From an uncultured Roseburia sp. (GTDB lineage: Bacteria > Bacillota > Clostridia > Lachnospirales > Lachnospiraceae), in NCBI GenBank assembly GCA_947573605.1, contig CANPGM010000022.1, positions 1 to 54,713 on the forward strand: a stretch of DNA of 54,713 nucleotides, in the 5' to 3' direction. The notes under the pieces were generated by a model, which saw only the letters and a list, made by a program, of their open reading frames with translations, was not told the DNA's origin and did not search any database. Shown piece by piece: positions 21,457 through 46,200 of this stretch (the first letter of the stretch is position 1; every line of letters starts with the position of its first letter). The position numbers and the translations under genes are program-made.

Positions 21457-21909
21457 CCTTATAGGATTCGGGTGTCAAAAGGCTGGTTTCAGGCTATTGG
21501 CTGGCAAATTGCACAAAATATCACTCGCTGTATGTTCCGGCAAACGGATTCTCTAAATGCTCTGACCGGGTGATTTCTCCGCAGTGCAACCGCCCGCCAA
21601 TCGCCATCCTGGCTCATTGCGGGCTTTTGGGGACTTCCATGTCCCCAAATTGCAGATGACGAACAGAGCATTAAGAGAATCTCATTTCCCTGCACAAAAA
21701 TCCTCCATGCCGGAGCAATTTATTGCGAAGGCACGCGCCCGAAATATCAGATTTCGGGCTGCGATTCAGATTTGTGGCTTCGCCACAAATTTGGGTGTGA
21801 AAAATAAGCTATCGAGCTTATTTTTCACACTATAGCTCCGTGATTTATTTTGTGCAAGTTGCCAGTTCAAATCGAAAAGACCGCCTTTTGACACCCGAAT
21901 CCTTATAGG
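21457..21909. mobile_element. MITE-like inverted-repeat element with 9-bp flanking direct repeats
   Basis: Perfect 18-bp terminal inverted repeats (ATTCGGGTGTCAAAAGGC, 21466-21483; complement 21883-21900) are extended by weaker matches to about 55 bp ending in TTGCACAAAATA. The direct repeat CCTTATAGG sits outside both ends (21457-21465 and 21901-21909). Inside are an imperfect 18-bp inverted repeat (21547-21564 with 21664-21681) and a chain of hairpins: GGGGAC/GTCCCC, CCCGAAAT/ATTTCGGG, TTTGTGGC/GCCACAAA, and a 16-bp arm GTGTGAAAAATAAGCT. No convincing protein is encoded. It reads as a non-autonomous element that needs a transposase from elsewhere, or a structured intergenic repeat. Confidence 0.8.
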
Positions 21910-22161: not shown

Positions 22162-22662
22162 ATGTTTGAGATTGGTGAGTATATTGTATATGGTAACAGA
22201 GGAGTGTGTCTCGTAGAGGATATTACACATGTAGAGGTTCCGGGTGCGGACAAGGACAGGCTATATTATATTTTAAGCCAGCTTGAAGGCGGCGCCGGTA
22301 AGATTTATGTACCCACCGATAACGAAAAAGTTGTGATGCGGAAAGTAATCACAAAAAAAGATGCGGAAGAACTGATTCAGAAAATGCCGGAAATCGAATT
22401 ACTCTGGGTAGAGGACGACAAAAGGCGTGAAGAGGTATATAAAGAGGCCATTCGAACCTGTGATTACAGGGAGTGGGTCAGTATGATAAAAACGCTTTAT
22501 TTTCGTAAAAAAGAGCGGACGGCACGGGGAAAAAAGGTTACGGCGCTGGACGAGAAATATTTAAAGGCGGCGGAAAACGGATTGTACAGCGAACTTTCCC
22601 TGTCGCTTGGAATACCGAAAAATCGAATGCAGGAATATATCAGAGAGCACATTAGAGCTTAA
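22162..22662 (+). CDS. CarD/CdnL-family transcriptional regulator
   Basis: 166 residues. The N-terminal RNA-polymerase-interacting domain starts MFEIGEYIVYGNRGVCLVED and includes YYILSQLEGGAGKIYVPTDN. The helical C-terminal domain runs from about 75 on, with YREWVSMIKTLYFRKKERTA and a helix near LDEKYLKAAENGLYSELSLS. CarD_N proteins bind the polymerase beta subunit and stabilise open promoter complexes. AAGGAG lies 11 bases before the ATG. Its last codons and stop form part of the terminator hairpin. Confidence 0.88.
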   Translation: MFEIGEYIVYGNRGVCLVEDITHVEVPGADKDRLYYILSQLEGGAGKIYVPTDNEKVVMRKVITKKDAEELIQKMPEIELLWVEDDKRREEVYKEAIRTCDYREWVSMIKTLYFRKKERTARGKKVTALDEKYLKAAENGLYSELSLSLGIPKNRMQEYIREHIRA

Positions 22663-24319: not shown

Positions 24320-24496
24320 ATGAAATATATTATGGAGCATTACGGTGCGGCAATTCTCGTATCTGTCGCACTTGTGGCGCTGGGAATTGTTGTCGTGGCG
24401 CTTTGCACAGGCGACGGTTTTGTAGCAACGCAGTTTCAGAGCGCGCTGACGGCGTTTTTTTCTAAAATGAATACAATGAACAATCCGACGCCTTAG
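24320..24496 (+). CDS. Pilin-like short membrane peptide 1 of the Tad-like locus
   Basis: 58 residues, preceded by AAGGAGGAAAG, the best ribosome binding site of the locus. It starts MKYIMEHYGAAILVSVALVA, followed by a hydrophobic helix to about residue 29 and a short polar tail (TAFFSKMNTMNNPTP). Its N-terminus matches the peptides at 27688, 27871 and 28032 (pattern MxxIIxxYG). Flp pilins also have an EYG motif at the start of their hydrophobic helix, but the leader with a cleavage glycine is missing here. As the first gene, with the strongest site, it is the best candidate for the main subunit. Not recognised as a named family. Confidence 0.65.
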   Translation: MKYIMEHYGAAILVSVALVALGIVVVALCTGDGFVATQFQSALTAFFSKMNTMNNPTP

Positions 24497-24518
24497 CGCT
24501 TATATCGTTTCTTTTGAT

Positions 24519-24554
24519 CTTTCAAAGGCGTTTCCAAAGGAACGCCTTTGAAAG
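24519..24554 (+). promoter_or_regulatory. Perfect 14-bp hairpin between pilin-like peptide 1 and the ATPase
   Basis: CTTTCAAAGGCGTT and its exact complement flank an 8-base loop. No T-run follows, so it is probably an RNA-protecting or partial-termination structure that lets the first peptide be made in excess of the ATPase. The remaining 138 bases to the ATPase contain only weaker stems (for example TTTGAG/CTCAAA). Confidence 0.6.
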
Positions 24555-24692
24555 ACCTGTGAAAAAGGGGGCGTCGTCTGAGGCGTAGATTGAAAGATAA
24601 GATCGCTTTCTTATTGTTCGACCGGCATTTGAGCCAGAGCCTCAAATCCGCTCTGACAGGAAGGATTAGTGTGAGAAAGGGCATGGTTTTTT

Positions 24693-25757
24693 ATGAATGA
24701 TCTTGAGTGTTTTCAGCCGACAAGGGAACAATTCGGTATTTTCTGGAAGTATATCATGAATCCCAATATTACAGATATTGATTATAACGGAAGAGAATTA
24801 TGGCTGGCGGATTTGAAGAAAGGCCATTATAAAGCAAAGGAGGTAATCAGCGAGGCGTTCCTGGAACAGTTTACACATAATATCGGGAATTGTGTAAACA
24901 GGCAGTTCAACAAAGCAAATCGTGTTTTGGAGGCCGATACAAGAGAGCTTCGCATCAGTATTCTGCATCATTCGGTCGCCGTGTCCGGTACAAGTATCTG
25001 TATTCGAAAATCGCCGCCGATTATCAGAAGCCGTATTCGGGATATGATAGCATCCGGTTTTTGTGAGGAAAAAGTGCTTCATCTTCTGATTAACTGCGTA
25101 CTTGCAGGAATGAATTTTGTGGTAGGGGGAGAGCCCGGCCACGGTAAAACGGAGTTTACGAAGTTTTTAATGCAGTTTATTCCGCCTTCTCAGCGGGTTA
25201 TTACAATTGAAGACTCTCTCGAAATTCATTACAGCGCCATTAATCCGGGCAGCGACTGCGTGGAAATCCGGGTTGACGAGGATTTTGATTATACGGCTGC
25301 GATTAAGGCGTGCCTGCGTCAGAATCCAAAATGGCTGATTCTTTCGGAGGCAAGGTCTGTAGAGGTGACTTCGCTGTTGGAGCAGTGGAGTACGGGAGTA
25401 AAGGGATTTACCACAATTCATCTTGACGATCTTCGGAAGCTTCCCGACCGCATTCAAAACATGATGGACAATGTAAACGACGCAGACCGGATGGAAAATC
25501 GGATTTACCGATATGTCAATGTGGGCGTTCTTGTGAGGAAAAGGGAAGAAGAGGGAGGCCGCATTTCGCGTTATATGGATCAGATGTGTTTTTACAGCAG
25601 AGAAGGACAGGAGAATAAGATATATCTGTTGGTGAAAGACGGAGAACTGATTTCGAATGAGCTGCCGCCTGATATTGTGAGAAAGATGGAGGAGGAGCAT
25701 ATGGAAGATCCGTTTTTGTGTGATAAGTTCCAATGCTATATCGAGGAGGGAAGATAA
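24693..25757 (+). CDS. CpaF/TadA-family secretion ATPase
   Basis: 354 residues. Walker A GEPGHGKT at 146-153 (Lys152), Asp box ITIEDSLEIH near 170-179, a Walker B-like LILSEAR at 215-221, and the His box TTIH at 240-243. These are the four motifs of type II/IV secretion ATPases. The N-terminal domain (1-120) is shorter than in typical TadA. The usual GE(x)R after Walker B is SEAR here, keeping Glu and Arg. It should power assembly of the peptides encoded around it, working with the membrane protein that follows. Confidence 0.88.
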   Translation: MNDLECFQPTREQFGIFWKYIMNPNITDIDYNGRELWLADLKKGHYKAKEVISEAFLEQFTHNIGNCVNRQFNKANRVLEADTRELRISILHHSVAVSGTSICIRKSPPIIRSRIRDMIASGFCEEKVLHLLINCVLAGMNFVVGGEPGHGKTEFTKFLMQFIPPSQRVITIEDSLEIHYSAINPGSDCVEIRVDEDFDYTAAIKACLRQNPKWLILSEARSVEVTSLLEQWSTGVKGFTTIHLDDLRKLPDRIQNMMDNVNDADRMENRIYRYVNVGVLVRKREEEGGRISRYMDQMCFYSREGQENKIYLLVKDGELISNELPPDIVRKMEEEHMEDPFLCDKFQCYIEEGR

Positions 25758-25806
25758 GAGACGACTGAAAGAAAATGCCGTTAAAGCGGCGGAATGAGAG
25801 GTAAAA

Positions 25807-27333
25807 TTGAAAAATAGTGTAATACGATTATTAAATCCAAAGAATCTTCAGAGAGAAGTACATGTATACGGATATCATTTTTCCTGGAAGAATCAATTTG
25901 TTATATTTCTCTGCGCTTTTGCAGGAATGGCGGCGCTGGGAATTATATTTAAACTGTCGTTTCCTTTTACAGTTCTGATTCTGGCTGTGATGACGATGCT
26001 GCTTCCGGTCTTAATTTTAAATATGTACCGTCATATGTATGAACAAAAAAAATTTGCCGATGTAGTTACGTATATCGAGCAAATGATGTATTCGTTTCAG
26101 AAAAGCGGAAAAGTTAAGCTGGCGCTTATGGAGTGCGGCGAAGCTTTTGGAGACGGGGAGATGAAATCCGTAATTGAAAAGGCCGTTGCATATATTAATA
26201 AAGGGAAAGCCGGTTCGGGAGACGGTATTTTAAAAGAGGCTCTGATGATGATAGAAGCGCCTTACCGGTGCAGGAGAATGCACACCGCGCATGAGCTGCT
26301 GCTGAATGCGGAGGAGGACGGCGGGGAGGTTTTAAATTCAATTTCCCTGATTTTGGAGGATACGGAAAACTGGAAACGACGGGTTTATAAAATGCAGGCA
26401 GAGAAGAAACAGGGACATATGGACAATATTATCTCTATTTTGATTGCTACTGCGCTCTGCGCGCTTTGCCTGTACGTAATTGATTATATGCGGATTTTAT
26501 TTCGCTCGGACAGTGCCATTTACGTATTTAAGCATTTCGCCGTACAGCTTACGTCAGAAGTTTTTATATTGTTTTCCATGTTTATATTTGCAAAAAGCGC
26601 GGGCAGCCTGACCGGCGACTGGTTGAAAGAAGAGCAGTTTATAAAGAAAAACAGAATATTACAAATGTATAATGGGGTTAAAAATTATGATCATAAGAAA
26701 GAATTCTTAAAAAGTATATTATTTGCAATGCCTTTCTTTCTGTCGGCAGTTACTTTTTTCTTCTTATCTAAAAAAGGGCTCTGTATGCTCTTTCTTTTCG
26801 GAGCGGTATTTCTTCTTTTTCAGCATAAAATCGGTTATAAGCTTTCAAAACAGGATGTGACCAATGAAATTTATATTGCGTTACCGCAGTGGCTTATGGA
26901 TATGGCATTGCTCCTTCAGAATAATAATGTACAGGTTTCGATTATCAAATCGGCGGATCATGCGCCTGCGGTATTGCAGCCGGAACTTGCGGCTTTAACG
27001 GACCGGATTCGGAAGGAGCCGGATAAGCTTTCTGCTTATACCGGTTTCTGCGGGGATTTCTATATTCCCGAAGCGTTAAGCTGTATGAAAATGCTGCACT
27101 CGATATCGGAGTCGGGAATCGGGGATGCAAAAACGCAGATTCACAATTTACTCGGACACATTAATAAGCTTCAGAATCAGGCGGACAATAAAATAAACGA
27201 ACAGGCTCTTTTTAAAATGCGTATGATTTTCAGCTATCCGGTATTCGCGGCAGCAGTCAAAATGCTGGTGGATATGACGGTTGGTATGTTTGTATTGTTT
27301 CAGCTTATGGGAAGTGCAGGAGGGATTGTATGA
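25807..27333 (+). CDS. Fused TadB-TadC-like inner-membrane platform protein
   Basis: 508 residues from a TTG start after GAGAGG. Membrane segments near 30-50, 53-73, 206-226, 242-262, 303-321, 323-340 and 475-498. Between the second and third lies a soluble helical domain (75-200) with VVTYIEQMMYSFQKSGKVKL; between the sixth and seventh lies a second one (345-470) with ALPQWLMDMALLLQNNNVQV. Each resembles a T2SF half, and the order matches TadB followed by TadC, normally two genes. Immediately overlaps the next gene (ATGA). Assigned by topology and gene order; sequence similarity to the families is weak. Confidence 0.7.
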   Translation: MKNSVIRLLNPKNLQREVHVYGYHFSWKNQFVIFLCAFAGMAALGIIFKLSFPFTVLILAVMTMLLPVLILNMYRHMYEQKKFADVVTYIEQMMYSFQKSGKVKLALMECGEAFGDGEMKSVIEKAVAYINKGKAGSGDGILKEALMMIEAPYRCRRMHTAHELLLNAEEDGGEVLNSISLILEDTENWKRRVYKMQAEKKQGHMDNIISILIATALCALCLYVIDYMRILFRSDSAIYVFKHFAVQLTSEVFILFSMFIFAKSAGSLTGDWLKEEQFIKKNRILQMYNGVKNYDHKKEFLKSILFAMPFFLSAVTFFFLSKKGLCMLFLFGAVFLLFQHKIGYKLSKQDVTNEIYIALPQWLMDMALLLQNNNVQVSIIKSADHAPAVLQPELAALTDRIRKEPDKLSAYTGFCGDFYIPEALSCMKMLHSISESGIGDAKTQIHNLLGHINKLQNQADNKINEQALFKMRMIFSYPVFAAAVKMLVDMTVGMFVLFQLMGSAGGIV

Positions 27334-27665
27334 AGCATGTAATCGAAGCTTTCAGCGCGATCATCTATATTTCTATGACGCTGTTTGTAAGCGTTGCCAT
27401 TATAAGCGCAAGCCTTGATATCACGGCCGCAGCGCAGTATCGGGCAGATGTTACGGCAGAGCTGGAAAACAGTAATTTTAATCAGGAGGTAATTGATGCG
27501 TGTATTGCGCAGGCAGATGCGAAGGGATATATGCTTGAGATTACAGACTGTACTTATGATAACTATAATGATATCAATACGGCGGAGGTAGTTCTTACAT
27601 ACAAATATGAAATACCGCTGCTTGGAATTTCGGTAACAAAAACGACGCGGGGAATCGCGAGGTAG
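27330..27665 (+). CDS. TadE-like/pseudopilin-like protein
   Basis: 111 residues; ATG overlaps the previous stop. One N-terminal membrane helix (about 8-31, with AIIYISMTLFVSVAII) precedes a soluble C-terminal domain with ITAAAQYRADVTAELENSNF. The single-helix plus small extracytoplasmic domain layout is that of TadE/TadF minor pilins. No prepilin cleavage glycine is apparent. It likely forms part of the assembled surface structure or its base. Confidence 0.6.
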   Translation: MKHVIEAFSAIIYISMTLFVSVAIISASLDITAAAQYRADVTAELENSNFNQEVIDACIAQADAKGYMLEITDCTYDNYNDINTAEVVLTYKYEIPLLGISVTKTTRGIAR

Positions 27666-27687
27666 AAAAACAGAAAGGACTGATTTT

Positions 27688-27795
27688 TTGGGTGAAATCA
27701 TAAAGGAATACGGCGATGCATTTATTGCCGGGATTTTCGGAGGCTGCAGCGTCGCGGCTTTGATATATGTTTTTAACTATGTCACTTCGTTTTAA
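27688..27795 (+). CDS. Pilin-like short membrane peptide 2
   Basis: 35 residues from a TTG start, eight bases after AGAAAGGA. It reads MGEIIKEYGDAFIAGIFGGC, then a hydrophobic run and a short end (NYVTSF). The IIKEYG start matches the sister peptides and the EYG element of Flp pilins. Far below usual gene-calling limits; supported by the ribosome binding site, tight operon position and paralogy. Confidence 0.55.
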   Translation: MGEIIKEYGDAFIAGIFGGCSVAALIYVFNYVTSF

Positions 27796-27870
27796 AACGA
27801 TTCGAAACGAGAGCTGTCAGGCGCAGCAAAAACCGACAGGAGCAAAAGCTGCGCGGAAAAGAGGGAAGAT

Positions 27871-28017
27871 ATGAAGTATATATTAGAGCATTACGGAACA
27901 GGTATTTTAAGCGGAACGGCGGCGTTTCTTTTGCTGTCATTATTTTTCAGGATGTTGGAAGGCGGCGGCGCGCTGCATACACTGGTGACTTTGTATACAT
28001 CGGGAATCGCCGGATAA
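27871..28017 (+). CDS. Pilin-like short membrane peptide 3
   Basis: 48 residues with GAGGGAAG before the ATG. It starts MKYILEHYGTGILSGTAAFL, nearly the same as peptide 1, followed by a membrane helix and a short glycine-rich tail (GGGALHTLVTLYTSGIAG). Clearly a paralogue of the peptide at 24320. Confidence 0.65.
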   Translation: MKYILEHYGTGILSGTAAFLLLSLFFRMLEGGGALHTLVTLYTSGIAG

Positions 28018-28031
28018 GGAGCTGCTGCATA

Positions 28032-28520
28032 TTGAAATATATCATTGATTTATACGGGCGTTTTCTGCTTAGCGGGGCCGTATTGCTTTTGGTCTTTGTG
28101 CTGTTGTTTTCACGCATTAGCGATTCGGAAGGGAACAGAGGCGCATTTAAAATTATGGGCGCCGCTTTAGGGCTGACCAATGAAAGCGGGGGAGCCGGTA
28201 TTGATTTTGCTGTTTATCGAACGGAAAGTGAGAAAGAGGCTCCTTCCATTGTATATTCCTATGACGGTAAGCTCTATGCAAATGAGGCTGTTTTGCTGTC
28301 TGATTTTATCAGAGCCGTTGATTATAACAGCGGACCGTTGGAACTGCGCGTTTTACAGGTCACAGACAGTGCGTCAAACGATATAACATCGTGTTATGAC
28401 AGAAGGAACGGGAATATTTGCTTTCCGGCAGAAGGAATGAACCGGATTACGCTTGCTGCAAAGGATTCGTCAAATAAAAAGTATACCTGTACGATTGAGG
28501 TACCGGTCAATCGGAGATAG
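28032..28520 (+). CDS. Pilin-like membrane protein 4 with C-terminal beta-rich domain
   Basis: 162 residues from a TTG start, AAGGAG ten bases upstream overlapping the previous stop. The N-terminus MKYIIDLYGRFLLSGAVLLL belongs to the same paralogous set. After the helix comes a soluble domain (about 55-162) with alternating hydrophobic pattern (LELRVLQVTDSASNDIT, then NRITLAAKDSSNKKYTCTIE) that resembles an Ig-like fold. It may be the set's long member, displayed at a tip or on the surface. Function not recognised. Confidence 0.65.
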   Translation: MKYIIDLYGRFLLSGAVLLLVFVLLFSRISDSEGNRGAFKIMGAALGLTNESGGAGIDFAVYRTESEKEAPSIVYSYDGKLYANEAVLLSDFIRAVDYNSGPLELRVLQVTDSASNDITSCYDRRNGNICFPAEGMNRITLAAKDSSNKKYTCTIEVPVNRR

Positions 28521-28570
28521 GCTCGATTTTCGGAATCCTGGGATCTGTGGCTGTGGCATGGAGGATTGAA

Positions 28571-29185
28571 ATGAAGAATGTAATTTTAATTGCAGTATAT
28601 ATGACACTTGCAGCGCTGACGTTCGGTATTGTGATGGCGCTGCATGGAAGGGAGGCGAGAGGAATGGAACTTTCGGATTATCTATCTTCTGCTGTAGAGG
28701 AAACGGTTGAGAACTGTATGCTGGAAAAGAACTATGAAGTAAAAGAGGACGATCTTTTTCTTACGGATTTTATGGAAAGTTTTGCGGCGGGATTGGATAC
28801 GAAATCGGATTTAACATTAAAAGTTTTAAGGGCGGATGCCGACAGCGGACTTTTATCCGTGGAAGCGGAAGAAAACTATGAACATCTAAACGGAAGACGA
28901 GGTACGGTTGGAGGTGTAAAAACGGTTATTTTTAACCGGCTTTTTCAGGAACCGCTGAAAAGCCATCAGGTATGCTTTTATCTTTCCGCAGATGATATGA
29001 CGGGCGGGCAAAACTGTTATAAGACCTATTGCGTCGCGGAAGGTGATTTGATAACGGCTCCTTTAGAGCCGCTGTGCGACGGAGCGCAATTTAACGGATG
29101 GAGGGATATAAACGGATATCTGGCCGATTTTACTGAAGCAGTGACGGAAGAAAGAATTTATTATGCCGATTGGAGGCGGGATTAA
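28571..29185 (+). CDS. Minor pilin-like protein ending in an InlB-B-type repeat
   Basis: 204 residues; ATG 28571 was chosen for GGAGG at 28560-28564, over a GTG 24 bases earlier. One membrane helix (about 4-24) and a TadE-like N-terminal part precede a soluble domain. The last 45 residues follow the Listeria-Bacteroides/InlB B-repeat pattern: a YxVxxGD start, a PLxxLCDGAQFNGW middle, and a DFTEAVTEERIYYADW end. That beta-grasp-like repeat is common in surface adhesins. It suggests an adhesive or anchoring role at the tip; inference. Confidence 0.6.
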   Translation: MKNVILIAVYMTLAALTFGIVMALHGREARGMELSDYLSSAVEETVENCMLEKNYEVKEDDLFLTDFMESFAAGLDTKSDLTLKVLRADADSGLLSVEAEENYEHLNGRRGTVGGVKTVIFNRLFQEPLKSHQVCFYLSADDMTGGQNCYKTYCVAEGDLITAPLEPLCDGAQFNGWRDINGYLADFTEAVTEERIYYADWRRD

Positions 29186-33313: not shown

Positions 33314-33622
33314 ATGAACGAAGTGATTACGCGGTTAAACGAAATCGAAGAAAAAGCAAATTCCATTATGGAAGGGGCAAAAGCAAAAAAAATGCAAATG
33401 GAAGAGCGGCTTGTCTTTGAGAAAAAGGAATTTGACGCCCGTCTTAAGGAAGAAGAGCGGGCCCGTGCCGAAGGACTTGCAAAAGAACTTAGAAAAGAGG
33501 CCGAACAGGAGCTCGTTTGCTTAAGGGAAAAAAACAGGAACGCCATTGCCGGACTAAACGAGTATTATGAGAAAAATGAAGAACGGCTGGCAGAGGAAAT
33601 TTTTCGAAAAATTATCGGATAA
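33314..33622 (+). CDS. V-type ATPase peripheral-stalk subunit G/H-like
   Basis: 102 residues with AGAGGG eight bases upstream. Almost the whole chain is a charged helix (NEIEEKANSIMEGAKAKKMQ, then Glu/Lys/Arg-rich heptads) ending EEIFRKIIG. This matches the AhaH/NtpF-type stalk protein that pairs with subunit E. First gene of the V-ATPase cluster, 13 bases before subunit C. Confidence 0.8.
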   Translation: MNEVITRLNEIEEKANSIMEGAKAKKMQMEERLVFEKKEFDARLKEEERARAEGLAKELRKEAEQELVCLREKNRNAIAGLNEYYEKNEERLAEEIFRKIIG

Positions 33623-33634
33623 AGGAGAACTGCG

Positions 33635-34663
33635 ATGTCAGGTGGGTTATTGCAATACAGCGGTCTGGTAACGAAAACCCGGGCAATGCATGGCAGACTT
33701 TTATCGCCGGAAGAATGCGCGTGGCTGGCGGAATTTGAAAACGTAGAGGATTTTATTGCTTTTTTAAAGGAGGCAAGGGGTTACGGCGAGATTTACCGCA
33801 GTCATGAGGAAATTCATCACAGATCTCAGGTAGAGGCCGTTATCAGAAATTCGCTTTTTTCCGATTATGGCAAGCTGTATCAGTTTGCGTGCGGCGCGCA
33901 GCGGGAGGGGCTTGAGATCATTTTTCTGCGCTATGAAACGGATGTGCTTAAGGCATGTCTGGAGCATGCGTATCAGGGGGAAAGCGCAAAAAATCTTTCT
34001 TATCTGAATCTGTTTTTTAACCTGCATTCGGACTTTGACACCGAAATGCTGATTCAGGCGAAAAATATGACGGAGCTTATGACGGTTCTTGCGGGAACGC
34101 ATTATGAAGCGCTGATGCTGCCGCTGCGGGAGGATTCTTCGTGCGTATATGCGGATTATGCGTTTGCGCTTGATGTTTTTTACTATAAGCGGGCGTGGAA
34201 GCAGAAGGAGAAACTTTCCGAAAAAACGATGAAGCAGATAATTACGCAGATACTGGGTACGGAAATCGACTGGCAGAACATTCTTTGGATGTACCGTGGA
34301 AAGCGTTTTTACCGGATGAAGCAGGCGGATCTTGCCGCGTATCTGATTCCACTTTCCTATCGTTTGAAAAAAACGGAGCAAAAAGCGATGCTGGAAGCGG
34401 AAACAATCGAAGAGTTTATGGCCGTGTTGGGAAATACCGTATATTTTACCGGGAAGGACGCCGTAATAAAAATGGGAGACGAACTTGCATATCGGAAAGT
34501 GATGGATAAAACTTATCAGGCGGTATGTAAAAAATACCCGCAGTCGCTTGCACCTGTTTTGAAATATCTGCATGACAAGGAGCAGGAAATTGACAGGCTT
34601 ACGACGATTCTGGAGGGGATCCGGTACCGGATTCCGCCGCGTGAAATACAGGGAATGCTGTAA
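33635..34663 (+). CDS. ntpC: V-type ATPase subunit C (d-type)
   Basis: 342 residues with AAGGAG upstream. All-helical; it begins GLLQYSGLVTKTRAMHGRLL and carries the conserved LDVFYYKRAWKQ and RGKRFYRMKQADLAAYLIPL patterns of the AtpC/subunit d family. It caps the membrane rotor and connects it to the central stalk. In Enterococcus hirae ntpC follows ntpE; here it is moved to the front of the operon. Confidence 0.9.
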   Translation: MSGGLLQYSGLVTKTRAMHGRLLSPEECAWLAEFENVEDFIAFLKEARGYGEIYRSHEEIHHRSQVEAVIRNSLFSDYGKLYQFACGAQREGLEIIFLRYETDVLKACLEHAYQGESAKNLSYLNLFFNLHSDFDTEMLIQAKNMTELMTVLAGTHYEALMLPLREDSSCVYADYAFALDVFYYKRAWKQKEKLSEKTMKQIITQILGTEIDWQNILWMYRGKRFYRMKQADLAAYLIPLSYRLKKTEQKAMLEAETIEEFMAVLGNTVYFTGKDAVIKMGDELAYRKVMDKTYQAVCKKYPQSLAPVLKYLHDKEQEIDRLTTILEGIRYRIPPREIQGML

Positions 34664-34680
34664 TAGAAGGAGGGAGAGCC

Positions 34681-36612
34681 GTGGTTGAAAAAATGAAGCT
34701 TTTGCATATTACCGGCCCAAAGCAGGATATTGACCGTGTGGCGGACCGGTATTTAAGCAGATATGAGATTCATTTTGAAAATGCCGTCTCATCATTAAGC
34801 ACGCTGACGAATGTCCGTCCTTTTGTAGAGACAAATGTCTATAAAGATGCCTATGCAAAGGCTAAAACGCTCCTTCTTGAGTTCGGAGAAGAAGCGGACG
34901 ACGATGTTGAGCGGTTAGAGCCGCAGGAAGCGGCGCAGACGGTAGAGACAGCCTGTGCTCTGGCTAAGGAGATACAGAGCAGACAGGAGGAACTGAAAAC
35001 AGAACGAACCGGAATTTTAAATCTGATGGCTCAGATTGAGCCGTTTCGAAAGCTGGATTATGAATTTAAAAAGATTTTAACATTTCATTTTATCGACTTT
35101 CGATTCGGACGGATTTTAAGAGACTATTATCAAAAGCTGGAGACTTATTTTCACAATACGGATCATGCGCTGTTTTATCAGTGTCACAGTGATGAAACGT
35201 ATGTGTGGGGCGTTTACTTCGTACCTCAGGTCTATTCGATTGAAGTGGACGCGGTCTGTCTTTCGTTTCATTTTGAACGGCTGTATCTTCCGGATTCCTT
35301 CGAGGGAACGCCGGATTCGGCTTATCTTGCGGCGGAAGAACAGCTAAAAAAGAACGAAGCGCAGGCCGATGAACTCCATCTGCAGATGCATGAAATGTTA
35401 AAGCGTCATCGGGCGAGAATTTTTAGCGCATGGGCTTCTCTAAAGGCTTACTGCGACAATTTTGATATTCGAAAATTGGCGGTCTGCACAAGGCCTGCCG
35501 ACGACGGACGGGAGTATTATATTTTATACGGCTGGATGAGTGAGAAGGACGCGGAAGCTTTTGAAAAGGAAATCGCCGCGGACGAAAACGTTCATGTCAT
35601 AGAAGAAGCGGTTGACAGAAAGCTTTCCGTTTCGCCTCCGACGAGGCTTAGGAATCCAAAGATCTTTAAACCGTTTCAAATGTTTGTAGAAATGTACGGT
35701 CTGCCGGCCTATAACGAAATGGATCCGACAATCTTTATTGCGCTGACGTATACGCTAATGTTTGGAATTATGTTTGGCGATGTGGGCCAGGGAATCATTC
35801 TGGCGGTGGGCGGATTCCTTTTGTACAGATTAAAGGGAATTAATCTTGCGGCAATTGTTTCGCTTGCGGGAGTCTGGTCAACGGTATTCGGTTTTCTATA
35901 CGGCAGTATTTTTGGATTTGAGGAAATATTAAAGCCGATCTGGATGCGTCCGATGGACAATATTATGACGACGCTTTATCTGGCAATCGGTTTTGGAATG
36001 GCGCTGATTCTGGTTGCAATGGTAATCAATATTATCAACGGAATCCGGGCCAGGGAACCGGGCAGCATTTTTTTCAGCCAGAGCGGGATTGCGGGACTGA
36101 TCTGCTACGGTTTCTGCGTGGCCTGTATCGTTCTTTTTATGACGGGACATCCGATACCGGCGGCGGGTCTTATCGGCGCTGCGGTGGGAATTCCTTTGAT
36201 TGCGATTATGTTAAAAGAACCGCTGTCAAATTTGCTGGAACGAAAACGGAAGATCTTTCCGGCGGGCAGCAAAATCATGTATTTTGTGGAAGCGCTTGTA
36301 GAACTGTTTGATGTAGTACTGAGTTACGCAACGAACAGTATTTCATTTGTACGCGTCGGCGCGTTTGCATTAAGCCATGCGGGAATGATGGGCGTTGTAA
36401 TGACGCTGGCCGGTTATGAGAGCGGCTCTCCAAACTGGGTGATTATTGTACTTGGAAATATTTTAGTAACGGCGCTTGAGGGACTGGTTGTGGGAATACA
36501 GGTTCTGCGTTTGGAATATTACGAAATGTTCAGTCGTTTTTATAAAGGAACAGGAAAGCCGTTTCGGGCATTTTTCGGACAAAAAAACGAAACAAAGAGA
36601 AAGGCAGGTTAA
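34681..36612 (+). CDS. ntpI: V-type ATPase subunit I (a-subunit)
   Basis: 643 residues from GTG 34681 after AAGGAGGGAG; ATG 34693 is a possible but badly spaced alternative. The N-terminal 320 residues form the cytoplasmic stator arm. The C-terminal half has about seven or eight membrane helices, starting PTIFIALTYTLMFGIMFGDV, with SFVRVGAFALSHAG carrying the essential Arg of the ion half-channels and ending ALEGLVVGIQVLRLEYYEMF. Complete. Confidence 0.95.
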   Translation: MVEKMKLLHITGPKQDIDRVADRYLSRYEIHFENAVSSLSTLTNVRPFVETNVYKDAYAKAKTLLLEFGEEADDDVERLEPQEAAQTVETACALAKEIQSRQEELKTERTGILNLMAQIEPFRKLDYEFKKILTFHFIDFRFGRILRDYYQKLETYFHNTDHALFYQCHSDETYVWGVYFVPQVYSIEVDAVCLSFHFERLYLPDSFEGTPDSAYLAAEEQLKKNEAQADELHLQMHEMLKRHRARIFSAWASLKAYCDNFDIRKLAVCTRPADDGREYYILYGWMSEKDAEAFEKEIAADENVHVIEEAVDRKLSVSPPTRLRNPKIFKPFQMFVEMYGLPAYNEMDPTIFIALTYTLMFGIMFGDVGQGIILAVGGFLLYRLKGINLAAIVSLAGVWSTVFGFLYGSIFGFEEILKPIWMRPMDNIMTTLYLAIGFGMALILVAMVINIINGIRAREPGSIFFSQSGIAGLICYGFCVACIVLFMTGHPIPAAGLIGAAVGIPLIAIMLKEPLSNLLERKRKIFPAGSKIMYFVEALVELFDVVLSYATNSISFVRVGAFALSHAGMMGVVMTLAGYESGSPNWVIIVLGNILVTALEGLVVGIQVLRLEYYEMFSRFYKGTGKPFRAFFGQKNETKRKAG

Positions 36613-36617
36613 AAAAT

Positions 36618-37037
36618 ATGGTTACAAAGGTGATTTTGGCAGCGATTTTATTGATCAGTATGGGTATTCCTTATATCGGATACCGGATCGGGAAAAAGAA
36701 GGAAGGCTGTACAAAGGTTTCGCTTGCGCTTGGGCTTCTTCTTTTCTTCGGCACGGTCGTTGCAGCGGATATGATGATTTTTTCCGGTAATATATACGCG
36801 GCTTCGGAAGTTTCCGGTGCGGCGGCAAATACGGAGGGCTGGCGTTATCTGGCGGCGGCGCTCTCGACCGGTCTTTCCTGTATCGGCGCCGGCTTTGCGG
36901 TAGCGAGTGCGGCCAGCGCGGCGATCGGGGCGTTAAGCGAGGATTCGAGCATTATGGGTAAGGCGCTGATTTTCGTAGCTCTGGCAGAGTCTATTGCGCT
37001 TTACGGACTGTTGATTTCTTTTTCTATTCTGGGATAG
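36618..37037 (+). CDS. ntpK: V-type ATPase rotor subunit K (c-type)
   Basis: 139 residues, four hydrophobic segments (about 4-24, 33-55, 75-103, 115-138). The second hairpin is c-like: CIGAGFAVASAASAAIGAL, then ALAESIALYGLLIS. The ion carboxylate is Glu124 with Ser125 and Tyr129. The first hairpin lacks a carboxylate, as in double-hairpin K subunits. Ala91 stands where Na+ rotors have Gln, so the Na+ site is incomplete and proton use is more likely; this is inference from motif comparison. Confidence 0.92.
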   Translation: MVTKVILAAILLISMGIPYIGYRIGKKKEGCTKVSLALGLLLFFGTVVAADMMIFSGNIYAASEVSGAAANTEGWRYLAAALSTGLSCIGAGFAVASAASAAIGALSEDSSIMGKALIFVALAESIALYGLLISFSILG

Positions 37038-37054
37038 CAGATTGGGGCGTCGCG

Positions 37055-37363
37055 ATGAAAATGTTTTTAATCAGTGATAATGTAGATACCTATACCGGGA
37101 TGCGGCTTGCCGGGATTGAGGGCGTGGTCGTTCACGAGAGAGAAGAACTTGAAGAGGCAATCTCAAGTGTCTGTTCAAATCCGGAAATTGCGATCGTGCT
37201 TTTGACTGAAAAATTTGGCAGAGATTTTCCCGATCTGATAAACAATGTCAGAATGAACCGCAGAGTTCCGCTGTTTGTGGAGATTCCCGACCGCCACGGA
37301 ACGGGACGGAGTAAGAATTTTATTACGGATTATGTAAATCAGGCAATTGGACTAAAACTGTAG
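37055..37363 (+). CDS. ntpG: V-type ATPase subunit F
   Basis: 102 residues. Rossmann-like start MKMFLISDNVDTYTGMRLAG, then VCSNPEIAIVLLTEKFG and VPLFVEIPDRHG, as expected for the central-shaft subunit F (NtpG in E. hirae naming). Its stop is 14 bases before the start of subunit E. Confidence 0.9.
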   Translation: MKMFLISDNVDTYTGMRLAGIEGVVVHEREELEEAISSVCSNPEIAIVLLTEKFGRDFPDLINNVRMNRRVPLFVEIPDRHGTGRSKNFITDYVNQAIGLKL

Positions 37364-37377
37364 TGAGGGAGAAAGCT

Positions 37378-37944
37378 ATGGAGATAAAGGAAAAGCTGGA
37401 TGCCTTTTATACGGCGGCGATTGAGGCGGCAAAAAGCAAGGGAGATGCAGTCGTAAACGAGTATACGAAAATTTATGAGGAAAGTATATCCGAATATGAA
37501 AAGCAGAAACGAAAAGAGTATGAAAGCATCCGCCTCGGAAGAGACGCGGAAATTCGGCATGAAATCAACAGAGAAGTTTCGGAACGGATTCTGCTTTTAA
37601 AAAAGGAGTACCATGAAGAGACAATAAAAAAGAAAGAACAGCTTTTTGCATGTGTATCGAAAAAGCTTGCGGAGTATAAGAAAACAGAGGAATACCGGGA
37701 GTGCCTGGCGCGTAAAATCCGCACCGCTTTCGAGATTGCTAAGGGGGAGGCTGTCACGGTATATCTGGACGCGTCGGATGCTTCGCTAAAGGAAACCGTT
37801 GAGGCGGAAACCGGATGTGAGCTGACGATAAGCGAAACGGATTTTATGGGCGGCATCCGCGCGGTGATCCGATCGAAAAACATGTTGATTGACGAGTCGT
37901 TTCTAAGCAGACTTGCGGAGGAAAAGGCGTCTTACGGGGTATGA
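37378..37944 (+). CDS. ntpE: V-type ATPase subunit E
   Basis: 188 residues. ATG 37378 follows GGGAG by 7 bases; the longer GTG reading from 37363 begins inside the subunit F stop and is not preferred. N-terminal half is a long charged helix (AAIEAAKSKGDAVVNEYTKI), C-terminal half a small alpha/beta domain. It forms the peripheral stalk with the G/H-like protein. Its stop overlaps the start of subunit A (ATGA). Confidence 0.88.
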   Translation: MEIKEKLDAFYTAAIEAAKSKGDAVVNEYTKIYEESISEYEKQKRKEYESIRLGRDAEIRHEINREVSERILLLKKEYHEETIKKKEQLFACVSKKLAEYKKTEEYRECLARKIRTAFEIAKGEAVTVYLDASDASLKETVEAETGCELTISETDFMGGIRAVIRSKNMLIDESFLSRLAEEKASYGV

Positions 37945-39713
37945 TTATGGGAGCAACTGGAAAAATATACGGGATTAACGGGCCGGTTCTTACGATTGCC
38001 GGGAACCCCGGTTTTAAAATGTCCGAAATGGTTTATGTCGGCGCAAAACGGCTGATTGGAGAAGTAATCGGCCTGACGAAGGAAAAAACAACGATTCAGG
38101 TATACGAGGAAACGTCGGGATTAAAGCCGGGAGAAACGGTAGAGGGAGCGGGACATGCCATCTGTGTGACGTTGGCGCCCGGAATTATCGGTAATATTTT
38201 TGACGGAATCGAGCGTCCGCTTAAGGAAATCGCCGGGAAATACGGCGTGTTTATCCCGACCGGGGTAAACGTTCGGAATCTGGATTTTGAAAAGCGCTGG
38301 GAAACGCATATGACAGTGAAGGCGGGCGACTATATCGGGCCGGGCAGCATTTTTGCGGAGGTTCCCGAAACAAAGTCTATTGTTCATAAAGTAATGGCTC
38401 CTCCCGGAGTGGAGGGAGAGGTTATAAAGGCTGTGCAAAACGGCGCTTACACGATAGAGCAGGAGCTTGCGGTAGTTCGAAACGCTAAGGGGGAGGAAAT
38501 CTCTCTTAAAATGGCGCAGAAGTGGCCGATACGGATTCCGAGGCCGATTGAAAAGCGCTATCCCGCCGCCCGGCCGTTAGTGACGGGACAGAGAATTTTA
38601 GATACGCTTTTTCCGATCGCAAAGGGCGGTACGGCGGCTCTGCCGGGAGGGTTTGGCACGGGAAAGACGATGACGCAGCATCAGCTTGCAAAATGGTGTG
38701 ATGCGGATGTCATTATCTATATCGGCTGCGGCGAGCGCGGAAACGAAATGACGAATGTATTGGAAGAGTTCGGAGAACTGGTTGATCCGAAATCCGGTAA
38801 TCTTTTGATGGAACGGACGACGCTGATTGCCAATACCTCCAATATGCCCGTAGCGGCCCGCGAAGCGAGTATCTATACCGGAATTACGCTGGCCGAATAT
38901 TACCGGGATATGGGGTATCATGTGGCGATTATGGCCGATTCTACGTCGCGTTGGGCGGAGGCGCTTCGGGAGCTTTCGGGAAGGCTGGAGGAAATGCCGG
39001 CGGAAGAGGGATTTCCGGCTTATCTGGCGTCAAGGCTCTCTGCGTTTTACGAGCGCGCAGGTTATGTGGAAACGTTAAACCATTCGGAAGGGAGCGTTAC
39101 AATTATCGGCGCCGTCTCGCCGCAGGGCGGCGATTTTTCGGAGCCGGTAACGCAGAATACGAAACGGTTTGTAAGGTGTTTTCTGGCGCTGGATAAGGCG
39201 CTGGCGTATGCAAGACATTATCCGGCGATAAACTGGCTGACGAGCTATTCCGAATATATGGAGGATCTGTCGGCTTGGTACAGCCAGAATGTCGGAGCAA
39301 ACTTTGTATACTGCAGAAATCAGCTATTAAATATTCTGACGACAGAAAACCGTCTTAATGAGATTGTAAAACTGATTGGAAGCGACGTACTGCCTGACGA
39401 TCAGAAATTGATTTTAGAAATTGCGCGAGTGATACGGCTGGGATTTTTGCAGCAGAATGCGTTTCACTCGGACGATACCTATGTGCCGATGTCAAAGCAG
39501 CTTTACATGATGGAATTGATTCTCTATCTTTACGAAAAGTGCAGAGCATTGATTGATATGAGTATGCCGATGGCGCTGCTGCGGGAAAGCAGTGTATTTG
39601 AAAAAGTAATTGCAGTCAAGTATGACGTGCCAAACAGCGAGCCGGAAAAATTTGACGAATATCATAGGATCATCGATGCGTTTTACGAACATCTGGTAAA
39701 AACGAACGGATAG
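37941..39713 (+). CDS. ntpA: V-type ATPase catalytic subunit A
   Basis: 590 residues; ATG 37941 overlaps the subunit E stop, ATG 37947 is an alternative. Beta-barrel start [13 protein letters not shown], a non-homologous insert region, and the P-loop [13 protein letters not shown] with Lys242; the common family form is GPFGAGKT or GPFGSGKT, so the Pro is Gly here. Then [19 protein letters not shown] and [19 protein letters not shown], the catalytic and arginine-rich segments. It hydrolyses or makes ATP in the A3B3 head. Confidence 0.96.
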
Positions 39714-39736
39714 TAAGGAAAGGGATGGAAGCTGTC

Positions 39737-41125
39737 ATGGCGATTGAATATTTGGGATTGAGCGAAATAAACGGGCCTCTGGTTGTAATGGAGGGAGTAG
39801 AGGACGCTTTTTATGATGAAATCGTTACCTTTACCGTCGACGGCGATTCGGAAAAGAAGAAGCTGGGGCGTATTGTAGAAATCAGCCGGGATAAGGCGGT
39901 CGTTCAGGTATTTGAAAGCACGGCGGAAATGTCTTTGAACAATACGCATACAAAACTTACCGGACATCCGATGGAGATTAGGCTGTCCGAGGGGATTCTG
40001 GGAAGAACTTTTAACGGAGTCGGAGAGCCGATTGACGGACTCGGCCCGGTAAAGGCCGAGGCTGTGCTGGATGTCAACGGTCAGCCGATGAATCCCTGCA
40101 CAAGGGAGTATCCGAGAAATTATATTCGTACCGGAATTTCTGCAATCGACGGTCTTACTACTCTGATTCGCGGACAGAAACTGCCGATTTTTTCAGGAAA
40201 CGGTCTGCCGCATGATAAGCTGGCGGCGCAGATCGTGGAACAGGCGAGTCTTGGCAGCGGTTCAAAGGAACAGTTTGCCATCGTATTTGCCGCGATGGGT
40301 GTAAAGTATGATGTTGCGGAATATTTTAAACGGACGTTTGAGGAATGCGGCGCGAGCGCTCATGTCGCAATGTTTTTAAACCTGTCAAACGATCCGGTGG
40401 CCGAACGTCTGATTACGCCGAAGGTGGCGCTTACGGCGGCGGAATATCTGGCGTTTGAGAAAAATATGCATATTCTGGTTATTTTGACCGACATGACATC
40501 CTATGCGGAGGCGATGCGCGAGGTGTCTTCATTAAAGGGCGAGATTCCGAGCCGAAAAGGATATCCGGGATATCTGTACAGCGAGCTGGCGTCTTTGTAC
40601 GAACGCGCCGGGATTGTAAAGGGGTCGGACGGCTCCGTAACGCAGATTCCGATTCTTACCATGCCAAACGACGATATTACACACCCGATTCCTGATTTGA
40701 CAGGTTATATTACCGAGGGGCAGATTGTGCTGGAGCGGGCGCTGCACCAGAAAGCGATTTATCCGCCGATTAATGTGCTTCCGTCTCTGTCCCGTCTGAT
40801 GAAGGACGGAATCGGAGCGAAGTATACCAGGGAAGATCATCAGGATGTGGCAAACCAGTTATTTTCTTCCTATGCGAGAGTTGGCGAGGCAAGAGACCTG
40901 GCAAGCGTAATCGGCGAGGATGAGCTGTCTCCGGTCGACAAAAAATATCTTTTGTTCGGAACGGCTTTTGAGCAGCAGTTTGTCGGACAGGGAGAAAACG
41001 AAAACCGTTCGATAGAAGAGACGCTTCGCATCGGATGGGAGCTGCTTAAGATTCTTCCGAGAGAAGAGCTTGATCGTATTGACACGAAGATTTTGGATAA
41101 ATATTTGCCGGAAGAGACAATTTAG
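39737..41125 (+). CDS. ntpB: V-type ATPase regulatory subunit B
   Basis: 462 residues; ATG 39737 gives the family start [20 protein letters not shown] and follows GGAAG by 5 bases, whereas ATG 39725 adds four residues. Signature regions: [36 protein letters not shown] and [20 protein letters not shown]. It lacks a P-loop, as expected. Partner of subunit A. Confidence 0.96.
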
Positions 41126-41155
41126 ATGATTGATAGATAATGCGGAGGCGTCAGT

Positions 41156-41773
41156 ATGGACCCGAATACCTTTCCAACAAAAGGAAACCTGATTCTGGCA
41201 AGAAATTCCCTTGCGCTGTCCAGACAGGGCTATGATTTAATGGATAAAAAAAGGAATATTCTGATTCGCGAATTAATGGATCTGATTTCGGAAGCGGCGG
41301 ATATTCAGGAGGAAATCGATTCTACGTTTACAAATGCATACAGAGCGCTGCAGAAGGCGAATATTCAGATGGGGATTCATGAAGTCGAGCAGGCAAGCTT
41401 AAGCGTGCCGGTCGAGGATTCCGTCTATCTAAAGCGCAGGAGCGTGATGGGTACGGAAATTCCGAAGGTGGAATATGAAAAGAAAGAGGAGAAGCCGACG
41501 TATTCCTTTTATCATACAAAAATGTCTTTAGACGAGGCGTGCACACAGTTTAGCAGAGTAAAAGAGCTGACAATCCGCCTTGCGGAGATCGAAAATTCCG
41601 CGTATCGTCTGGCAGCTAATATAAAGAAAACACAGAAACGTGCCAATGCGCTGCAGAATATTACGATCCCGAAATACGAACGGCTGGCTGGAGAGATTCA
41701 GGAATATCTGGAGGAAAAGGAACGGGAAGATTTTACGAGACTTAAAGTAATCAAAAAAATGAAGATGCGTTAA
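41156..41773 (+). CDS. ntpD: V-type ATPase subunit D
   Basis: 205 residues with GGAGG upstream. Two long helices form the central shaft: the N-terminal one begins FPTKGNLILARNSLALSRQG, the C-terminal one includes KKTQKRANALQNITIPKYER, both well conserved in subunit D. Last ATPase gene. No terminator separates it from the regulator 45 bases on. Confidence 0.93.
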   Translation: MDPNTFPTKGNLILARNSLALSRQGYDLMDKKRNILIRELMDLISEAADIQEEIDSTFTNAYRALQKANIQMGIHEVEQASLSVPVEDSVYLKRRSVMGTEIPKVEYEKKEEKPTYSFYHTKMSLDEACTQFSRVKELTIRLAEIENSAYRLAANIKKTQKRANALQNITIPKYERLAGEIQEYLEEKEREDFTRLKVIKKMKMR

Positions 41774-43194: not shown

Positions 43195-43223
43195 TTGACT
43201 TCAACTGCCTGAGATGCTAAAAT
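43195..43223 (+). promoter_or_regulatory. Promoter of the subtilase gene
   Basis: TTGACT (43195-43200) and TAAAAT (43218-43223) with a 17-base spacer. It overlaps the extended reading frame from 43214, which supports the later start at 43283. Confidence 0.8.
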
Positions 43224-43282
43224 TCTTAAAAAAATCAGGAACCGCGGCTATTACGGCGGAGAGAGAAAGGATGGAGTTGTTT

Positions 43283-46200
43283 ATGAAAGGAAGAAAGCGT
43301 TTATTGGCCTCTCTTCTGACCCTTGCGCTGCTTCTGACATGCCTGCAGACGGATGTTTTTGCAGATCCTGCGGCAGATATGAGCGGTGAAACGGCAGAAA
43401 ACGACGGCGGAAGCGCGGGTAACGCCGCAGAAAGCGGATTCGAAATGCTGGAAGCGGTTGAAGTAACGGGCGTTTCGCGTCTGGACAGAGAAGAGACGCA
43501 GGAAGACGGGAAGGTAATGCAGCCTCTTTATCAAGCGGAGGATATGGTTACCGTAATTGTGGAGTTAAACGAAGCTCCTGTGATGGACTATTATGACGGC
43601 AGTACATATGCTTCTTTTAAGAAAGAAGAGAAAACCGCCGGGGAGGCGGTGTCCGAGTTTCTGACTTCTGCAGAGGCCGGGGAGCTTGCAAAAGAGCTTT
43701 TAACGGGGCAGGAGCAACTCATTTCGCAGATAAATACACTGGCGGGCAGGAACGGCCATTTAGCGGACGATGCGGATTTTTCTGCAGCAGCAGAGCGAAG
43801 CGCCGCTGATTTTGAAGTTACGGCGCAGTGGACGACGGCGGTAAATGCGTTTGCGGTTCGTATGCCTTACGGAACGCTTAAGGAAGTAAAAGCGATGCCG
43901 GGAGTCAAGCGCGCCTATGTCGAGCATACCTACAGCCTTCCGGAGCCGGTGGAAAAGGCAGCCGTATCGGACGATAAGAACAGAGAGACCTATAGCTACG
44001 AGATGGCGGGAATCGACTCCGTATGGGCGAAAGGCTATACGGGAAAAGGGATGCTTGTCGCCGTTTTGGACAGCGGACTGGACATTAAACTGAATTACGA
44101 GGGAATCGTTGTCCGTGAGCATGAGGCGTTTACCGACGAATCCTTTTTAAACGATCCGGCTGATAACGTGAACGGCTGGGAACTTCGCTATACGAACGAA
44201 AGTCTTGCAAAGTTTCTGGAGGACAACCAGTTGATTTCGACGACCGGTTCGGACGGAAATAAAATCGTATATGACAATAACGCACTTTATAAAAATCTCA
44301 AAGTTCCGTATGCCTGTGATTATGCGGACGGGGATCTGAACGTACTTCCGACGAACAGCGATCACGGAACCCATGTTTCAGGTACCATTGCGGGTTTTGC
44401 AAAAACGCCTGAGGGAGAAGTAAAGTTTACGGGAGCGGCGCCGGATGCGCAGATTCTGTTTATGAAGGTATTCCCGGATGAGGACGGCGGCGCAACGGAG
44501 AGCAGTATCGTAATGGCGCTTGAAGATTCTTTGAAGCTCGGAGCGGACTTGATTAACTTAAGTCTCGGTTCCGACAACGGGTATGCCGTAGACGATACGA
44601 TTCAGAACGACACATTTGCGCGTATCGAAGCGGCGGGAATTGCAATGATGACCTCCGCGGGAAACAGCGCGTATTCTACGGCAAACAATAATTACGAAGG
44701 AGAGGGCTTAACTTCTTCTCCGGAGACTTCTATGATGTCCTCCCCTGCGGTATATGACAGCAACTTAAGTATTGCGTCGATTGACGGTGCAATTGCGGTG
44801 GAGAGTTATTTTGTATGGACAGATAAAGCGGGTACGGAACATAGAGTTCCGTTCAGCGATCCGTGGTCTGTCGCCATGAAATCCGGTTTTTCGGACAAGC
44901 AGTATCCGATTTATGCAGTCGGAGGAACCGGTACGTATGACGATTACTACAGCGCCAATTTTAATAACGGCTGGAACGGCGGAAAAACGGGTCTTGCGCT
45001 TGTAAAGCGGGGCGAGATTTCGTTTTCGGATAAGATTAACAATGCAATGTCTTTTTCCGGCGTCAATTCACAGGGGGAGCGTTACGGCGTTTTGGGCGTA
45101 ATCATTTATGACAACGATCCGGAAGGAACGGAGCTGATTCATATGAGCGCCGAGAACACTGCGATCACGTCGGCATATATTTCCGGTAAGGACGGCGCGG
45201 CAATTGTGTCGGCGCTGGAATCCGGATATGAGGTGAAAATTCAGGTATCAAAGACGGATCAGACAATAGAAAACGAAACGTTTGGCGAGATGTCTTCCTT
45301 TACTTCCTGGGGCGCGGGTCCGGGTCTGGAGTTAAAGCCGGAGATTACGGCGCCGGGCGGCAATATCTGGTCTTCTGTAATAGACCCGATGAATTCCGGA
45401 AACGACGGTTATACGGGAAGCTACAGCATGATGAGCGGTACTTCGATGGCTGCGCCGCATATGACGGGAATTGCAGCGTTAGTCCGCCAGTATCTTATCG
45501 CATCCGGTTATCCGGCAAACGAGGAGCTGGGCGATTTTATCAGCCGTCTGCTTGTAAGTACGGCAGTTCCGCAGCAGGATTCCAATCATGTGTTTTATTC
45601 TCCGCGCCAGCAGGGGGCGGGTCTGGTAAACGCATCGGCAGCGGTTTCCACACCGGCTTATCTGTCGGTAGAGGGAAAGAATGTCGGAAAGCTTGAACTT
45701 TTGGACGACCCGGAGAAAAAGGGCGTCTATGATATTACCTTTGATGTGAACAATATTTCCAATCAAAGCGTAACTTATGATGTAGAAGTCGTCCTGATGC
45801 GCCCGGATGTGAAAGAGGTTCCTACGCAGTGGGGGACGCGCAGCGTACTGTCGGATCACGATGTTGTGCTTTCAACGACGTCTCTCGGCGATGTGACGGC
45901 TGCTCCAAAAAGCAGTGCAAAGTTCAGCAAACAGGTATCCCTGACCGAAGCACAGAAAGAAGAGCTGAACAATTTATTTGTAAACGGAATCTATGTCGAA
46001 GGATATGTAAAGCTTACGGACAAAGGAGGTAAGCATCCTCAGATCGGTATGCCGCTTCTTGCTTTTTACGGCGACTGGACGAAAGCGCCTGTGTTTGATA
46101 CCGCTTTTTGGACGGATGAGCCTAAGGACGGGGAGAGCGTGTACAACAATGAGTCTGCATGGGGCGTTAATTTTGTAGGCTGTGCGGTTTGGGATGATAT

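Follow-up and report, generated by a model that had tools for sequence, protein, structure and literature searches.

The window, that is, the whole 54,713-nucleotide stretch analysed here (contig CANPGM010000022.1 of assembly GCA_947573605.1, from an uncultured Roseburia sp., hereafter the host), carries at positions 24,320–29,185 of its forward strand a compact operon, in which a VirB11/CpaF-class ATPase and a fused TadB/TadC-like platform protein are encoded together with six small, N-terminally anchored proteins (Table 1). All eight frames of the original prediction, which had read a Tad-like locus from the letters alone, were confirmed. Related starts are seen in five of the six small proteins, none of which obtained a family name in library scans of Pfam and NCBIfam, and p111 has no Pfam family of its own. 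The helix-plus-sheet part of p212 is pilin- or pseudopilin-like in outline, and translation of this last gene more likely begins at ATG 28571, with GGAGG 6 nucleotides (nt) upstream, than at GTG 28547. As judged from the comparisons below, the operon is a real, conserved branch of the type IV filament superfamily, undescribed as far as searched, with kinship both to Tad and to the virB11/tadA module that conjugative elements of Gram-positive bacteria carry.

Table 1 Genes of the operon in the window (lengths in amino acids, aa)
Feature	Position	Strand	Description
pep58	24320..24496	+	58 aa; MKYIMEHYG, then hydrophobic helix and amphipathic tail; GGAGG 7 nt upstream; candidate major subunit
ATPase	24693..25757	+	354 aa; VirB11/CpaF class; T2SSE 1.8e-17
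Platform	25807..27333	+	508 aa; TTG start; fusion of two T2SSF-like halves
p111	27330..27665	+	Starts MKHVIEAFS; membrane-anchored; TadE/DUF4320-like in outline; conserved family
p35	27688..27795	+	35 aa; pilin-like peptide; TTG start
p48	27871..28017	+	48 aa; pilin-like peptide
p162	28032..28520	+	Pilin-like N-terminus as in the short peptides, linker, Ig-like beta-sandwich head; TTG start
p212	28571..29185 (from ATG)	+	204 aa from this ATG; long helix, 3-strand sheet and InlB B-repeat domain

In the ATPase, the Walker A sequence, GEPGHGKT, lies at residues 146–153, and H243, taken as the histidine of the His box, is invariant among 22 aligned ATPases. Its assignment to the CpaF/TadA type was borne out by model matches to T2SSE and to the NCBIfam models VirB11 (7e-25), TrbB (2.3e-21) and TadA (1.7e-20), the three NCBIfam scores all lying under the models' curated cut-offs. 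The values were 7e-22 against CpaF structures, 1.7e-11 against ComGA, 3e-7 against PilB and 9.4e-6 against GspE; by profile, the ATPase is nearest to VirB11/CpaF and not of the GspE/PilB type. The two-domain platform also proved Tad-like by profile comparison: it aligned with TadB at an hhalign value of 94% (E 1.9e-7), and its C-terminal half, less clearly, with TadC at 27% (E 6.6e-4). Of the searches proposed with the original prediction, T2SSE matched the ATPase; the Pfam T2SSF model matched the platform, and the Flp models pep58, only weakly.

Conservation was surveyed in a chosen set of 73 loci, comprising the window, a second copy on contig C6 of the host, 20 places from an ATPase search of relatives, 11 of 80 from the search that yielded the named relatives, and 40 from family and class searches with a platform profile; L062 was dropped as lying on the same contig as L043. 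Because up to 22 of these loci went into the profiles, counts inside the set are not independent. The named relatives bearing the operon are Lachnospiraceae. The ATPase search matched 57 of 60 relatives, many of the matches being canonical CpaF, and the more specific platform profile matched 36 of the 299 family genomes, 4 of 391 in a class sample (two of them from other families) and 1 of 398 in a phylum sample, the host alone. The compact machine is carried by many gut Lachnospiraceae. The core order is conserved in the 73 loci, with the ATPase and platform present in 73 by choice, p111 in 66 and p212 in 65, and the neighbourhood survey that had been suggested at the outset placed pep58 upstream of the ATPase in 63. 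In addition, a scaffold of faecal origin recorded under the name 'Bacteriophage sp.' (L195; MT835474.1, 14357–31760) bears the operon's ATPase, platform and pep58-like frames; it is probably bacterial DNA.

Four peptides (pep58, p35, p48 and p162) had been ascribed the common start MxxIIxxYG. The shared start stood, but the strict 'II' occurs in just two of them, and the motif was recast as M-x-x-[hydrophobic]2-x-x-Y-G, with p111 added as a fifth relative. Among 1857 start codons in the window (open for at least 25 codons, both strands), the generalised pattern M..[IVLMF][IVLMFA]..[YF]G gave five matches; four of them are the operon genes just named, all of which have a Shine-Dalgarno-like site, so that the motif exceeds chance, and the fifth, elsewhere, has no such site. 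Of the 63 loci with pep58, 55 fit a slightly relaxed pattern and 60 have the start codon at the motif; the start lies two residues earlier in one and eight earlier in L060 and L061, whose pep58 lacks the pattern. The ten loci without pep58 include some at contig ends and some with a similar peptide downstream. Two tandem pep58-like genes replace the single one upstream of the ATPase in L164 and L183, and L069 has a second frame partly similar to pep58. The profile of pep58 aligned with those of p48, p35 and p162 at hhalign values of 97, 95 and 95%, respectively, and weakly with that of p111 (56%). Candidate p35 and p48 were picked in 38 and 42 loci, and p162 was present in 40 of the 73, being under-detected by its profile and with some starts picked wrongly.

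The short frames are also under constraint. In the close pair L151/L166, the ratio of nonsynonymous to synonymous substitution rates (dN/dS) was 0.06 for pep58, 0.04 for p35 and 0.17 for p48; for pep58 it was 0.11 against the C6 copy and 0.04–0.15 in the remaining pairs with usable dS, and the highest usable value for any short peptide was 0.36 (p48, L043/L044). Between the window and C6, dS was saturated in five of the eight genes, and the corresponding ratio of proportions (pN/pS) was 0.12–0.44. A lack of conservation or of purifying selection had been named as what would overturn the operon as originally read; the frames are conserved, dN/dS is low where dS is usable, and the reading survives. 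Judged by their fixed places, ribosome-binding sites and purifying selection, the short peptides are genuine genes.

Beyond the chosen loci, the ATPase matched 130 of 72,556 plasmid records at E ≤ 1e-20, of which 94 are typed conjugative; the ten genera named among them are all Gram-positive (Listeria 45, Bacillus 44, Enterococcus 28, Lactococcus 5, the rest smaller). At E ≤ 1e-5, 3029 records match, presumably including many Gram-negative VirB11-type proteins. In pLS20, the gene for the adhesin Tie is followed by two small genes, one for a DUF5411-like protein of 126 aa, tadA, two genes for platform proteins, one for a DUF4320-like protein of 120 aa, one for a peptide of 47 aa and more genes up to VirD4, both DUF matches being under the Pfam cut-offs. 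Profiles were compared with those of seven plasmids (six for p111 and p212). Our ATPases aligned with the plasmid ones at an hhalign E of 1e-56, as compared with 2.6e-36 for canonical CpaF versus plasmid and 2.7e-37 for ours versus CpaF; the N- and C-terminal halves of the platform aligned with the two plasmid platform proteins at 93% each, and p111 and p212 with their plasmid counterparts at 77 and 55%. The DUF5411 model matched 3 of 19 p212 members, at best with 0.01. Among characterised systems, the nearest relatives by profile comparison are the virB11/tadA modules found on conjugative plasmids of Gram-positive bacteria, pLS20 among them. The pLS20-family and related plasmids (NC_015148, pZB18) share with our operon the ATPase, a two-part platform, N-terminally anchored peptides of 47–58 aa and, less certainly, the DUF4320-like and DUF5411-like anchored proteins (below cut-offs), and have a surface adhesin gene adjoining. 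They differ in that the platform is two proteins and the module lies within a conjugation operon, their short peptides bear no sequence relation to ours (hhalign 0.9–20.5%), and the C-terminal domain described below had no significant match in the seven plasmid stretches.

An unrooted ATPase tree, from which L152 and L170 (contig ends) were left out and in which L070–L073 are shown apart, has a branch of which 67 family ATPases make up one side (support 100/93) and another of which 20 canonical CpaF make up one side (100/100, branch length 2.94). Three plasmid ATPases were intermediate and did not nest with ours, midpoint rooting placing them on the CpaF side. The four Bacillota rows L070–L073 join the family side; three of them (L070, L072 and L073, metagenome-assembled genomes) have a related ATPase, a split platform, longer anchored peptides and an upstream protein read as CpaB/SAF-like, and this neighbouring branch may bridge to the plasmid modules.

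The C6 contig holds all eight genes in the order of the window (identity 80% for the ATPase, 63% for the platform), and the two ATPases are sisters (100/99). Around this copy lie genes for VirD4 (T4SS-DNA_transf 3.8e-41), TrbL (4e-40), a VirB4-like P-loop protein, SSB and the topoisomerase TopB, with PrgI and TrbC/VirB2 matches under cut-off, and a TadZ-like protein which, compared together with that of L051, reached 90% to canonical TadZ. Since no PF03432 relaxase, the sole relaxase family tested, was found in the host genome, C6 is called an element bearing a type IV secretion system (T4SS) and not a proven integrative and conjugative element. The window contains no relatives of the C6 VirD4 and VirB4. 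The host also has, on contig C4, a canonical Tad locus that includes two A24 peptidases and an Flp bearing a leader (gene names partly by reading).

Like Tad/Flp (T4c) systems, the operon combines a CpaF-class ATPase, a TadB-like platform and a subunit of about 60 aa with a hydrophobic helix and an amphipathic tail. It differs from them in that its ATPases form a separate group, its platform is fused, and the window locus has neither an A24 peptidase nor TadZ and apparently no conventional class III leader, absences already noted in the original prediction and upheld by searches of the window and the starts of pep58. Gram-positive tad-like loci described in a 2011 PLoS One paper (PMC3244431) likewise have tadA and a platform and no recognised prepilin signal, and reportedly have tadV, tadZ and rcpC, the first two of which were not found in the window locus. 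The Com pilus, listed in a table of PMC10191384, is another minimal monoderm type IV filament; our ATPase, with its modest ComGA value, is closer to VirB11/CpaF than to the PilB/GspE type.

Large partner proteins (hereafter cargo) sharing a new C-terminal domain accompany the machine. The domain, with consensus xRFIxxxYx..GGLxExSxWxxxxEYxxLLxxA (GG in 15 of 24 aligned rows), has no counterpart in Pfam or NCBIfam and was found in 37 of the 73 loci, in proteins of 484–1850 residues and on the operon's strand in 38 of 38 matches, the weakest of which scored 15–24 bits. A hydrophobic stretch lies near the start of 36 of the 37 long proteins, which are probably secreted. The one short match, a 33-aa frame in L055 (3743–3844, minus strand), copies the C-terminal domain of the nearby cargo and is perhaps a remnant or a source for cargo exchange. 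List_Bact/InlB-type repeats occur in seven of nine large neighbours scanned, some of the nine lacking the domain. Co-occurrence was better assessed in the 299 family genomes, even though these overlap in genomes with the training set, the domain profile having been built from loci beside the operon and from the C6 cargo: 28 genomes have domain and platform, 1 the domain only, 8 the platform only and 262 neither (Fisher 4.6e-31). In the sole domain-only genome, G060, which is 74% complete, a p212 gene adjoins the cargo gene. Eight of 31 domain places are off the platform's contig; two of these (G060 and G169) carry p212, and six are unlinked. A single 921-aa frame in L168 (5342–8107, minus strand) joins a p212-type N-terminus to the C-terminal domain, a natural tip–cargo fusion. 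The host, with its two operons, has two pairs of cargo and CWB2-like protein (named from sequence), one on C6 near the element copy and one on C43, their cargo being 82.5% and their CWB2-like proteins 84.8% identical. The CWB2-like genes (L208, 5255–6802, minus strand; L211, 1152–2729, plus strand) directly adjoin both host cargo genes, and their products are possibly the system's anchor; the C43 cargo, we infer, serves the window operon.

The window copy itself is flanked by a DUF4317 gene on one side and an adenosine-deaminase-like gene (named from sequence) on the other. Elsewhere in the window are a TwoAYGGAY RNA motif (21532–21697, minus strand; 90.4 bits), which precedes a CarD-like gene (22162–22662) by a few hundred bases, and, by sequence reading only, a V-type ATPase operon by appearance, followed by a regulator-like gene (33314–41773, plus strand), and a subtilase-like protein of 2068 aa with Ig-like repeats and the LPxTG-like end APKTADSG (43214–49420, plus strand).

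Several features speak for use of the subunits uncut, as originally proposed. The ribosome-binding site and start codon sit directly before the motif, hydrophobic or aromatic residues are kept at positions 4, 5 and 8 across four paralogous families, which would be odd for a discarded leader, residues 2–9 have a net charge of zero or below in 62 of 63 pep58, and an acid at +5 occurs in none of the 60 pep58 with Gly at 9 or 10. Several observations weigh against uncut use. Gly9 is near-invariant (pep58 56/63; p48 35/42, counting rows L058, L059, L071 and L184, left out in a first pass; p35 34/38 as picked, or 35/37 after two rows were removed and the window p35 was added by hand; p162 31/40) and is followed by about 20 hydrophobic residues, a possible minimal class III cleavage site that formally fits the class III definition given in PMC10191384. 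All 53 of the operon genomes tested encode an A24 prepilin peptidase elsewhere: in 48 its contig is not that of the operon (by reading of the listed places), and the contig is the same, at a distance of at least 388 kb, in five (G016, G034, G163, G197 and G341); in the host, A24 genes occur on C4 only. Moreover, the leader of the host's canonical Flp is acidic as well, which weakens the charge argument. The nine-residue start (e.g., MKEIFEEYG) might accordingly be a minimal leader cut after Gly9 in trans by the peptidase of the host's canonical Tad locus, leaving a hydrophobic stretch as in the host Flp (EEDG|VGVVEI, cut site by reading), and the machine would be an ordinary Tad relative borrowing that enzyme. 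This account is possible, though we lean away from it, as +1 would frequently be K/R in p162 or D/E in p35. The use of unprocessed subunits is plausible; of the earlier proposal, the want of a conventional leader stood, and Gly9 and the widespread A24 peptidase tell against uncut use.

Taken together, these features are somewhat better explained than not by a short filament on the cell surface, which would display or export the C-terminal-domain proteins for contact. An ATPase hexamer would drive the fused platform, which would pull pep58, and perhaps p48 and p35, out of the membrane to build a thin, short filament crossing the monoderm wall. Its capping or priming would fall to p111, p162 and p212, with p212 presenting its InlB B-repeat and p162 its Ig-like domain, and the machine would display or move a separate, probably Sec-exported protein (about 480–1,850 residues, ending in RFI..S.W, often with InlB/List_Bact repeats). 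The output may be contact with neighbouring cells or host surfaces and, on mobile elements, mating contact. The co-occurrence of machine and C-terminal domain, the p212–domain fusion and the place of the pLS20 module beside the Tie gene support this proposal, in which filament formation, surface exposure, cargo binding and use without processing are predicted from sequence.

The same adjoining, co-occurring cargo, the short subunits and the small gene count would suit a pseudopilus that pushes the C-terminal-domain protein past the wall in a type II-like manner, with no stable fibre; we regard this as unlikely, because monoderms have no outer membrane to cross and adhesin-type repeats are frequent in the large neighbours. 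It is more doubtful still that the machine is a VirB11-type accessory to the T4SSs of Gram-positive bacteria, with the window copy left stranded from an integrative element. The transfer genes beside the C6 copy, the sister relation of the two ATPases and the presence of the module in pLS20-type plasmids speak for it; however, relatives of the C6 transfer proteins, the only queries used, are scarce in the 73 locus stretches (VirB4 1, VirD4 2, TopB 3, with C6's own VirB4 and VirD4 immediately beyond its stretch), the copy in the window is intact, and the host has no PF03432 relaxase. The surface filament remains our preferred interpretation. The original prediction was partly supported. It did not include the paralogue borne by the T4SS element, the relatives of pLS20 type, the heads with InlB repeat or Ig-like fold, or the large proteins that co-occur with the machine.

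We also put forward, tentatively and with more doubt than belief, that this type IV filament forms a separate class. Its subunits would be translated at their mature N-terminus with no need of a prepilin peptidase; the class would be common to Lachnospiraceae chromosomes and to conjugative elements of Gram-positive bacteria, and its task would be display or export via the new C-terminal sorting domain. Gram-positive T4SSs are stated in a 2025 review to 'universally lack VirB11 homologs' (PMC12857230) and, in a 2021 paper, apparently to develop no pili (PMC8092201); the latter also describes Tie as required for efficient conjugation and reportedly not sortase-anchored. If real, the separate class would supply the missing VirB11 and a pilus-like organelle of Gram-positive mating. 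A VirB11/CpaF motor, platform and pilin-like peptides occur inside T4SS-bearing elements (C6, pLS20) and free-standing in many gut genomes, which opens three questions to direct test: how Gram-positive donors make contact with recipients, by what route an adhesin not anchored by sortase, such as Tie, arrives at the surface, and whether never-cut subunits can form a type IV filament. Proof of never-cut pilins would raise the standing of this branch further. By its presence, the C-terminal domain singles out a group of likely surface proteins of the gut, and its co-occurrence with the machine points to an unrecognised route by which sticky proteins are placed on the cell surface.

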